From NCBI GenBank assembly GCA_947631205.1, contig CANRKL010000005.1, forward strand, positions 1-38,632: a stretch of DNA of 38,632 bases, in the 5' to 3' direction. This stretch comes from an uncultured Bacilli bacterium (GTDB taxonomy: Bacteria; Bacillota_I; Bacilli_A; RF39; UBA660). Every line of letters begins with the position of its first letter. The first letter of the stretch is position 1. Both the position numbers and the translations under genes were made by a program. The notes beneath the pieces are model-generated. The model was given only the letters and a program-made list of their open reading frames with translations. It was not told where the DNA came from and made no database searches. Positions 18,269 through 22,683 of the stretch are shown here, piece after piece.

Positions 18269-19588
18269 TTAATTTACTCCCTCTATTACAAAGGGATTAG
18301 ATTTACTTCCATAATCACTTGCTGAATTTTCTTTTATTTTTATATTGTTTTTTAAATAAGCAGTTGGTTGTATGTAAGCATCTCCTGCAGGAACTTTTAA
18401 TTCTACATCAGCGCTGGCACCAATAATAAACACATATTGATAACCCCCCGAACCTGTTGGACCATTTGAACTAGAGACAGGTGTTAGAGTATACCTTTGA
18501 ATACCGTAAATATAAAACCAATTATATACTTCACAGTCACCCCTATCCCAGTTAAACATTGTTCGAACTAAACAACTATATCGCTTGGCTCCTCCGACTG
18601 CATATCCATAATCACTTAGATACATAAGCCCTATATATCCGTCCCATGTTGTTGTTCTTGGCACGTTATCATTGCAATCAAGCCTACTACAATATGCTTT
18701 TCCATTAATGTCACTTCTTTCCGCTTTATACATATATTTGGCTGTTATTTTATTTCTATCAATGATATTAATAGCTTCATCTATTGTTCCTGTATTCCAA
18801 CGCACCTTGACTAACTTATCTTTAACTCCAGGAGTTAATCCAATACTACTAAAATCACAAGCTGTTTGTTTATTATTTTCTCCGCTATAACATTGCCCGC
18901 TCTCTTTGTTCCAATATGCTCCAAAATTTAACGTCGTCATTAAGTCCGCTTGGCTCCATTCATTCACTCCACTACCTCTGTTTACTTCATTTGATGATGA
19001 GTCCCAGCTCCATCTTCCTATGTTATATGCTCTAATGATTTTTACTAAATTTTCTAAATGAATTCCACCACTTTCATCTACTACTGTCATATTATTCATG
19101 ACTCCGATGATTCGCCATAAAATTGGTTCCCCACTAGAATCTCTATCTCCTATATCAATGTAATTTTTTGGACTTGCTCCGATATATCTTAAATTTACTT
19201 CACTTGTGTCATCATAAGTTAAATTAGTTGTATCTTTATCTGCTATATCATAAAAATAGTCACTTAATAAATTAGATGAAAAATATAGTTTACATCTTGT
19301 TTGATTTTTAGATATATTTGTTACAAAAGGTGCCCATTTTTGATAATTCCACGCAATATTTGCTCCATTATTACATTCAGCATGGTCAAATCTTAAATTA
19401 TCTAGATTTCCTTTTTGGGGCATTTCACTTAATTGTTGTTCACCATTGTAAAAAACTAAATAGACATCTTCTTTTTTATTATATTTTTTATAAGTATTAA
19501 TAAATTGAAAGATTATTAACATTAATGTAAAAAATAGAAAAATTACAATTATTTTTAAACATATATCTTTATTTAATATTTTTTTCAT
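18269..19588 (-). CDS. TM-anchored surface protein (paralog of the next gene)
   Basis: N-term hydrophobic segment IIVIFLFFTLMLIIFQFI; shares LRYIG/FxxPKNYIDIGDR...LWRIIGVMNNMT...VNEWS.ADLMTTLNFGAYWNKESGQCYSGENNKQTACDFSSIGLTPGVKDKLVKVRWNTGT...SASDYGSKSNPF with 19599-20801. Confidence 0.7.
   Translation of the reverse strand: MKKILNKDICLKIIVIFLFFTLMLIIFQFINTYKKYNKKEDVYLVFYNGEQQLSEMPQKGNLDNLRFDHAECNNGANIAWNYQKWAPFVTNISKNQTRCKLYFSSNLLSDYFYDIADKDTTNLTYDDTSEVNLRYIGASPKNYIDIGDRDSSGEPILWRIIGVMNNMTVVDESGGIHLENLVKIIRAYNIGRWSWDSSSNEVNRGSGVNEWSQADLMTTLNFGAYWNKESGQCYSGENNKQTACDFSSIGLTPGVKDKLVKVRWNTGTIDEAINIIDRNKITAKYMYKAERSDINGKAYCSRLDCNDNVPRTTTWDGYIGLMYLSDYGYAVGGAKRYSCLVRTMFNWDRGDCEVYNWFYIYGIQRYTLTPVSSSNGPTGSGGYQYVFIIGASADVELKVPAGDAYIQPTAYLKNNIKIKENSASDYGSKSNPFVIEGVN
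18785..18925. repeat. 141-bp identical repeat, copy 1 (within paralogous CDS)
   Basis: tgttcctgtattccaacgc...ccaatatgctccaaa identical to 20082-20222. Confidence 0.9.
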
Positions 19589-19598
19589 TTTTTATGCC

Positions 19599-20943
19599 TC
19601 AACTTTCTAACTCAAATGGATTTGTTTTGCTTCCATAATCACTTGCAGAATTTGTCTTTATTTTAACAAAAGGTTTTAAATAGGCAACAGGGTGTACGTA
19701 ATAATTGTATTTTGTCCCATCTATTTCTACAAATCCACTTGAAGCAACATAAAAAACATAACAAGCGTTTACTCCATATGATACACTGGTTATAGTCCAC
19801 TGATAGCCTGTATCATCTATTAACCATCCATTTCCTTTGCAATTAGGGCTACTTTCAGACCATTTGGACATGGTTTTGTCTAAACAGGATTTATCTCCAA
19901 CTGCATACCCATAATCTGACGGATATATAAGTCCTATATAGCCGTCCCATGTTGTTTTTCGCTCTACTTTATCATTACAGTAATTTCCACCACTACAAAA
20001 TTTTTTTCCATTATTTTCACTTCTCTCTGCTTGATACATATAATTTACTTTAATGTTATTAGTATTATATTCTTCTCCTAATGTTCCTGTATTCCAACGC
20101 ACCTTGACTAACTTATCTTTAACTCCAGGAGTTAATCCAATACTACTAAAATCACAAGCTGTTTGTTTATTATTTTCTCCGCTATAACATTGCCCGCTCT
20201 CTTTGTTCCAATATGCTCCAAAGTTTAAGGTAGTCATTAAATCGGCTTCACTCCATTCGTTTACTCCGTAGCCTCTGTTTACTTCATCCGCTGATGAGTC
20301 CCAACTCCATCTTCCTATGTTATCTGCTCTAATGATTTTTACTAAACTTTGTCCTGTATTTTCACTTCCATCTTCATTGATAATCGTCATGTTATTCATA
20401 ACTCCTATTATTCGCCATAAGATTTTATTACCATTTGTTTCTCTATCCCCTATATCTATATAATTTTTTGGAGTTGAAAAAATATATCTCAAATTAGCAT
20501 CATTAGTATAATCGTACGTTAAATATGTTGTATCTTTTTCAGCTAATTTTATCAAATAGTCATTTGCCAAATTAGAAGAAAAATAAACTTTACATTTTGT
20601 TTTACTTTCTTTTAAATTAGTTATTATAATTCCCCAATTTTGATAATCCCATGAAATACTTGCACCCTTATCGCATTCAGCGCGTTCAAATCCTAAATTA
20701 TCTGGATTATTTTTAGTTGGCATATTTTCCAAAACAGTATTTCCATTATAAAAAGTTAAAAAAATATCACCACTGCCTTCATAGTTCACTGTCCCTTCCA
20801 TAACTTTGAAACTGACACTCTCTTGGTAGGCAGCATAACTTTTATTTAAATACCCCCCCCCCAGCGCACATTACGCCAAGGGCTACCGCGAAAGCCACAA
20901 GTTTCTTTTTATTATTTTTTTCTTTAAATTTATCTATTCTCAT
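19599..20943 (-). CDS. Secreted surface protein, out of frame in this assembly because of a G10 tract in the signal-peptide coding region
   Basis: ORF track shows 19599-20801 only. From ATG 20943 the reading is MRIDKFKEKNNKKKLVAFAVALGVMCAGGG then VFK-stop with 10 G; with 9 G it continues YLNKSYAAYQESVSFKVMEGTVNYEGSGDIFLTFYNG in frame with the 400-aa ORF (447 aa total). Confidence 0.8.
20082..20222. repeat. 141-bp identical repeat, copy 2
   Basis: Identical to 18785-18925. Confidence 0.9.
20853..20862 (-). repeat. Homopolymeric (G)10 tract on coding strand; candidate phase-variation switch
   Basis: tacccccccccc on + strand inside signal-peptide codons of the surface protein. Confidence 0.85.
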
Positions 20944-20990
20944 GACCTCACTCTCTTTCTATTATCTACATCATACCATAAAATAAAAAA

Positions 20991-21018
20991 GAAGTATAAC
21001 GTTTTTTTGTTACACTTC
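20991..21018 (-). terminator. Rho-independent terminator of the AAA-ATPase-like gene
   Basis: - strand GAAGTGTAAC-aaaaaac-GTTATACTTC-TTTTTTATTTT. Confidence 0.7.
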
Positions 21019-22683
21019 TACAATTTTCTTACATTCGTATCCTGAGAAGACTACGACATATTTTTTTAAGGGACTTTTTAAACTCTTATCTTTACTATAT
21101 TCTTCTATCTGTCTTTTTCCCTCTTCTATTTTACTATTTAATATTTTTTCACTATATTCACTTTTCTTGATATATTTTAATTCTATCATGATGTCATATT
21201 TGGCTTCTTCACTATTTCTAGTTATTAGTATATCAACATATCCATTATTACATGGATACTCTAATTTTCTATTTAAATCTGGGTGTCTTAATAAAGTATA
21301 ATACATTAATTCTATGTATTTTTCATCAAACTTGATAAATAATCTATTTCCTATTTCTTTTAATGTATCACTTACGTATTTACATATATTTTCTATCTTT
21401 CCAGTCTCTTCTATTTCTTTTACACTTTCTCCTAATCTGGCATTATCTAGTTCAACATTTATTGTTGATAAGATATGTTTAAAATAATTATTATAGGTAT
21501 CTTTCATTACTTGATTAGGTATTTTAAAAATTATACTATTTGCATATCTATCAAATCCATTAATAGTTAAGTATCCAAAATAATATAATAAACTTATTAT
21601 ATCTTCTTTACTAAAACTTTCTTCTAAATTAAATTTTGTTTTTAACTCTCCAATTATTCCATCAGTTTTTAATAGTTCATCTAATAGACTCTCATAGTAT
21701 TTATTGTCTTCTAATTTAATCAAATTTCCTATCTTTTCATAATTAACAGTTATATTATTATCTAATATTTGCTTTGGAATACTTTTAAATCTTTCATAAT
21801 AATCCAATAAATACATGACTAATGTTGCATTGAAGACTTTTTCATTAGAGTCTTCATTAAACAGATAACCATCGTAGTTTTCTATCATTAAATTATAGAT
21901 ATTTTCTCTATCTTTTTCTTCTACAAGGTCTTCTAATAATTTTTTTACTTCATCATGTGTTAAGCCTATCATGCTATTAAATTCTATGTCAGTTGATATA
22001 TCTGTTGCTATATTAAATCCAGTCGTCATTGAGTTTAGAGTTATCGGGCATATTCCTGTTGCAAAAAATCTTCCTACTACTCCTTCTTTTACATATATCT
22101 TTATATTAGCATAAAAACTTTTTACTATTCCAGTAACTACATTTTTAAATAATCCTGTATCTCCCTCTAAGATAGCATTTGTAAAGTTATCATATTCATC
22201 TATTATTATATATAATTTATGGTCTAATTCTAACCCTTTTACATAACTTAAAAATAATTTAATCATGTCATCTGCTGGTATCTCTTTATTATATTCATAT
22301 TCAATTTTATAACTATTTAAAAAATCATCTATTCCTGTTATGACACAATTTCTAAAACTATCTATTAACTCATCTTGTTCTTTAGATTCACTTATTCCTG
22401 AAAAATCGAATTTTAGAATATAATAATTATTTTTTCCAGAAGTTGGGTGTTTATATACATATGTCTCTTTAAACAAACTTTCAAATAAATCGACACTTTT
22501 AACATCATAGTAATAACTCATCATACTTGTAAACAAACTTTTCCCAAATCTGCCTGGTCTTAGATAAATTAATGTCTTTTTATAGTTCTCTAACTTTTCT
22601 AAATACATTGTCTTATCTACATATTTGTATCCCTCTAATATCAAATCTTTATAATCTATTATTCCATATGGTATTTTCTTCAT
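21010..22683 (-). CDS. AAA-ATPase-like (PF09820 type) protein with C-terminal PD-(D/E)XK nuclease-like domain
   Basis: IPYGIIDYKDLILEGYKYVDKTMYLEKLE...LIYLRPGRFGKSLF...; YIIIDEYDNF; C-term YDIMIELKYIKKSE. Confidence 0.85.
   Translation of the reverse strand: MKKIPYGIIDYKDLILEGYKYVDKTMYLEKLENYKKTLIYLRPGRFGKSLFTSMMSYYYDVKSVDLFESLFKETYVYKHPTSGKNNYYILKFDFSGISESKEQDELIDSFRNCVITGIDDFLNSYKIEYEYNKEIPADDMIKLFLSYVKGLELDHKLYIIIDEYDNFTNAILEGDTGLFKNVVTGIVKSFYANIKIYVKEGVVGRFFATGICPITLNSMTTGFNIATDISTDIEFNSMIGLTHDEVKKLLEDLVEEKDRENIYNLMIENYDGYLFNEDSNEKVFNATLVMYLLDYYERFKSIPKQILDNNITVNYEKIGNLIKLEDNKYYESLLDELLKTDGIIGELKTKFNLEESFSKEDIISLLYYFGYLTINGFDRYANSIIFKIPNQVMKDTYNNYFKHILSTINVELDNARLGESVKEIEETGKIENICKYVSDTLKEIGNRLFIKFDEKYIELMYYTLLRHPDLNRKLEYPCNNGYVDILITRNSEEAKYDIMIELKYIKKSEYSEKILNSKIEEGKRQIEEYSKDKSLKSPLKKYVVVFSGYECKKIVEV

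Follow-up and report, generated by a model that had tools for sequence, protein, structure and literature searches.

Phase-variable surface genes controlled by poly-G or poly-C tracts are known from the contingency loci of Campylobacter jejuni, the poly-C and poly-G genes of Neisseria and porA-type promoters, in which the tract lies in the spacer. The repertoire of the uncultured Bacilli bacterium described here resembles these loci in that the G tracts lie close to the start of the gene or within the -35/-10 spacer, where their length sets frame or spacing, that the genes in the putative OFF phase are intact and that many loci exist per genome. Unlike in Campylobacter and Neisseria, however, the loci are mostly paralogs of a single repertoire, their modal tract length corresponds to the OFF phase, and they appear to be diversified by a diversity-generating retroelement (DGR) as well. 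Mollicutes also control surface-antigen families by repeats, among them vlhA, whose promoter contains GAA repeats. A large paralog family, control by repeat length and members that are for the most part probably silent are shared with vlhA-type families, whereas the repeat here is poly-G instead of a trinucleotide, is situated at a coding or a promoter site and is combined with DGR diversity; the comparison with vlhA does not extend to exclusivity. With respect to DGRs, the closest described system is that of Treponema denticola, which acts on TvpA and on remote targets and in which isolates have between two and seven target genes (PMC4891356). Both systems use one template repeat (TR), one RT and one accessory gene to serve dispersed surface-protein genes with C-terminal variable regions (VRs), but at least 14 clean VRs are found here, in two families with different N-termini that each lie behind poly-G, and as far as the available text of that report goes, no phase switch is described for the T. 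denticola targets (PMC4891356). Some DGRs have been reported with many VR copies (PMC6642488). Our literature search gave no paper that combines "diversity-generating retroelement" with "slipped-strand mispairing", and among the papers on DGRs together with phase variation, phase-variable or homopolymer none indicates, by title and abstract, that both act on one repertoire.

The tract from which we started lies in a stretch of 38,632 nucleotides from one contig (the window), and it is very probably a slipped-strand phase switch, one of about 50 in a surface repertoire of which many members are also DGR-diversified. The forward strand reads C10 at 20853-20862, corresponding to G10 on the minus strand, on which all features of this locus are encoded. 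Translation from the ATG at 20943-20941 runs through 27 codons (20863-20943; MRIDKFKEKNNKKKLVAFAVALGVMCA) into the tract, continues with VFK and ends at a premature TAA (20842-20844). Behind the tract, the frame that enters YLNKSYAAYQESV has no stop over 417 codons down to 19599 (P0001, 19599-20852; by paralog comparison a member of surface family A) and includes the 400-aa ORF at 19599-20801, so that the full-length product comprises 27 + 3 + 417 = 447 codons once the frame is restored. A change by a single unit would toggle the gene between the truncated and the full-length reading, and paralogs with G9 are in phase. In the N-terminus, a KNNKKK stretch is followed by a 15-residue segment that reaches a mean hydropathy of 1.8, and this basic start with its hydrophobic core is conserved in about 30 paralogs, which makes a signal peptide or membrane anchor plausible. 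Apart from the tract there is no G or C run longer than 6 in the window, the runner-up being C6 at 18444-18449, and with 27% GC a tract of G>=10 is expected only 0.0025 times under a first-order Markov model. Re-reading the DNA thus reproduced the coordinates, the translation and the 447 aa of an earlier sequence-only reading of this locus, and its statement that the tract is the only long G/C homopolymer holds as well.

The tract is not an isolated case in its genome (G000; 1.146 Mb in 68 contigs, 27% GC, 88% complete). Under the same type of model, 58 tracts of G>=8 stand against 2.1 expected, an enrichment of about 28-fold, and for G>=10 the ratio is 51 to 0.07, or about 700-fold; every one of the 58 tracts is followed by T. 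The sequence context was read for 57 of them, and at least 47 fall within the part of the gene that encodes the N-terminus, in two related families of surface proteins. In family A (33 members, including the window gene) the distance from ATG to tract is 81-84 nt whenever the contig includes the start, whereas in family B (14 members) the tract lies 18-27 nt past the ATG, before a strong hydrophobic segment. A smaller tract-bearing family C (four members) has a hydrophobic N-terminus. The few remaining tracts are found outside these families. Three genes with such a tract, L088, L090 and L091, read in frame at G10 and encode a Big_2 protein of 1091 aa, a sulfatase-like protein and an unassigned protein. 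Two of these genes, L088:540-3812 for the Big_2 repeat surface protein and L090:2140-3750 for the sulfatase-like protein, are possible default-ON switches at G10. The same three genes also bear on the explanation that G10 is an assembly or consensus artefact and that the real tracts are G9 with the genes ON. Homopolymers are indeed error-prone and several tracts are located at contig ends, but G8 to G11 occur at different loci within one assembly, and a systematic +1 error is not to be expected when three genes need G10 to be in frame. We therefore consider such an artefact extremely unlikely.

If the tract is a slipped-strand switch, its length should decide on the frame, and this is what the paralogs display. 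Among the 47 members of families A and B, 41 have G10 and are all out of frame, four have G9 and are in frame, and two have G11 and are out of frame; for members whose start lies past the contig end the phase was assigned by homology. Paralogs with the tract at the identical codon carry G9, G10 or G11, and the frame follows the length. Under random and independent phases, at most four of 47 members ON corresponds to p = 7e-5, a value that is only indicative as the paralogs share ancestry. Where the contig permits, the ORFs behind the tract are open for about 390-540 codons. It could also be argued that most copies are decaying paralogs, i.e., pseudogenes frozen by a frameshift in which the tract is incidental. 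The RT and TR of the DGR in this genome are degraded, and a few members have further breaks, namely L079, a G9 member broken further downstream, and C31:13561, which carries two stops. Such a decay is nevertheless very unlikely, since about 40 out-of-frame ORFs are intact apart from their frame, with a median dN/dS of 0.28 over family A pairs, the tracts are enriched far above expectation and other species share the arrangement. Pairs in which both members have G10 (n = 351) likewise reach 0.28, with a maximum of 0.44, and judging from these ratios purifying selection acts on the out-of-frame ORFs. Intact ORFs and purifying selection together imply that no permanent loss of the frame has occurred. 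The outcomes that would have spoken against the sequence-only reading, a fixed G9 or decay mutations elsewhere, were not seen.

The number of G>=9 tracts per genome reaches 55 in other members of the genus, and a sample of 117 genomes from the wider family includes 47 with at least one tract of G>=10. In a second genome of the genus (G001) the tract of the family A homolog is also 81 nt from the ATG, with G10 (OFF) in four copies and G9 (ON) in one. In five further genomes (G002, G014, G015, G018, and G023) the tract is instead placed between TTGAC(A) and a -10-like box, that is, in the -35/-10 promoter spacer, and precedes homologs of family A, B or C. According to a simple motif rule, the spacer at G10 is most often 20 bp long (23 loci). 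Sigma-70 promoter spacers usually have 16-18 bp, and since 20 bp exceeds this range, G10 may also be the weak state in the promoter spacers. Over the sampled relatives the tract lengths range from G8 to G17, with 77 cases of G10, 19 of G9, 17 of G11 and rare cases of 8, 12, 13, and 17. Of the 31 translational loci in the relatives, 8 are ON, a fraction not significantly under 1/3 (p = 0.25), so that a tuning toward default-OFF is based mainly on the genome studied here and on the promoter spacings.

That the same tract occurs either at a coding site or in a promoter spacer favors length switching at the DNA level and disfavors programmed frameshifting or recoding; these two tract positions are the best argument for DNA-level length variation. 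Constitutive recoding would mean that G10 is the working length and that slippage of RNA polymerase or ribosomal frameshifting continuously yields the full-length protein, which would fit the predominance of G10 and the purifying selection on out-of-frame ORFs. We consider it improbable, since recoding cannot act in promoter spacers and in-frame G9 copies exist. Moreover, a ribosomal -1 shift on G10 leads into the wrong frame, where by sequence another stop is met, and a net +1 or -2 would be required. For slipped-strand mispairing, in contrast, the tract excess, the paralog lengths, the intact ORFs and the promoter-spacer tracts all agree with the contingency locus in OFF phase that had been proposed from the window. 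We rejected the idea that slippage stems from a loss of mutS, as this gene is found in 35 of 37 genomes; with MutS present, high slippage lacks a ready explanation.

Besides the tract, families A and B have in common a C-terminal motif that ends with AVRPVAYL and contains scattered variable residues. On contig C46, a family A gene and a TR-like repeat (L102:1703-1800) occur together with a MutS_I-like ORF and a bAvd gene (PF22296, E 2e-11). The contig also encodes an RT that has YMDD and a GLPIGNLTSQ motif (IGxxxSQ type) and that is interrupted by frame breaks. At the level of the repertoire, the components of a DGR are thus found: an RT with IGxxxSQ, an accessory protein and a template repeat. 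The MutS_I-like ORF between TR and bAvd (L102:1955-2314) has 120 aa and matches MutS domain I above the cut-off (PF01624), and such matches recur next to DGR RTs in many relatives. Among named records, the closest RTs belong to uncultured Bacilli MAGs, several of which are by title from animal gut samples. In the genome itself the copy of the TR shows drift and no RT besides the broken one was found, which makes present activity of the DGR in this strain uncertain; the missing 12% of the genome could contain an intact copy.

The traces of DGR action were read from the 14 members with an in-register VR, which have 28 hypervariable columns, all at codon positions 1 and 2. Taking the TR of a relative (L144) as reference template instead of the TR of the genome itself, an adenine is found in 26 of the 28 hypervariable columns vs. 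1 of 63 others (Fisher p = 2e-19). Third-codon-position identity is 0.97 in the VR core, as expected from repeated homing off one template, vs. 0.68 across the aligned genes (0.63 for A-B pairs). In intact RT/TR/VR cassettes of relatives, the VR and its adjacent TR differ at non-A positions in 0 of 45, 1 of 47, and 0 of 48 cases. The window gene has a C-terminal segment at the position of the variable region of many paralogs (19677-19793, minus strand), which has no template match: 7 of 24 A positions and 37 of 80 non-A positions differ from the template, and the gene was rejected as a current DGR target. Phase variation would accordingly apply to the window gene, and DGR targeting to other members of its family.

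The neighborhood of the window gene is also repeated in the genome. A tract-less paralog D of 439 aa (18269-19588, minus strand) starts 10 nt past the family A gene, and this unit, in which 8-11 nt separate an A gene with a tract from a following D gene without one, recurs; six such pairs were read and a seventh was deduced from coordinates. Examples of the two-gene units are 18269-20852 in the window as well as L095, L099, and L093. Upstream, a terminator-like inverted repeat with a T run (20985-21018, minus strand) overlaps the end of a gene that by domain match is of the AAA-ATPase_like/PDDEXK_9 type (21010-22683, minus strand) and that is context, outside the switch. A few other repertoire members are preceded by 3' ends resembling that of this gene.

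Neither the window protein nor its neighbor was assigned to a family of Pfam or NCBIfam, a profile search of PDB sequences gave no match and viral_contigs contained no close relative of P0001. Two AlphaFold models (pLDDT 62 and 68), with which a C-type-lectin (CLec) fold of the C-terminal domain was looked for, gave no PDB match at E<=0.001 in Foldseek, and sub-threshold hits to EgtB/OvsA and Lcl were left aside. The proteins of the repertoire are probably displayed on the surface, where they may have an adhesive or receptor role.

In the proposed slipped-strand mechanism, the ribosome would stop three sense codons past the tract in the G10 phase and the gene would be OFF, while slippage during replication, presumably reversible in living cells, would bring the tract to a length of the other phase class and turn the gene ON. 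With a modal length of 10 as the OFF phase in families A and B, each cell would display few members, in changing combinations. The DGR would rewrite the C-termini of many members through adenine-directed mutagenic retrohoming, which suggests a division of labor in which the DGR makes the variants and the poly-G tracts choose those that are shown. Whether this amounts to a two-layer system with near-clonal expression, in which a retroelement mutates dozens of tips, default-OFF poly-G picks the displayed subset and the switch by frame or by promoter varies with the species, appears to us evenly balanced.

Phase variation and DGRs are usually treated separately, but in this uncultured gut lineage a single repertoire would be subject to both. 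Expression, selection and silencing of DGR variants thereby become testable in existing metagenomes, from which tract lengths and VR sequences can be read. The targets of one DGR type may far exceed the two to seven given for T. denticola (PMC4891356), and many DGR targets may escape annotation, being out of frame in the consensus.
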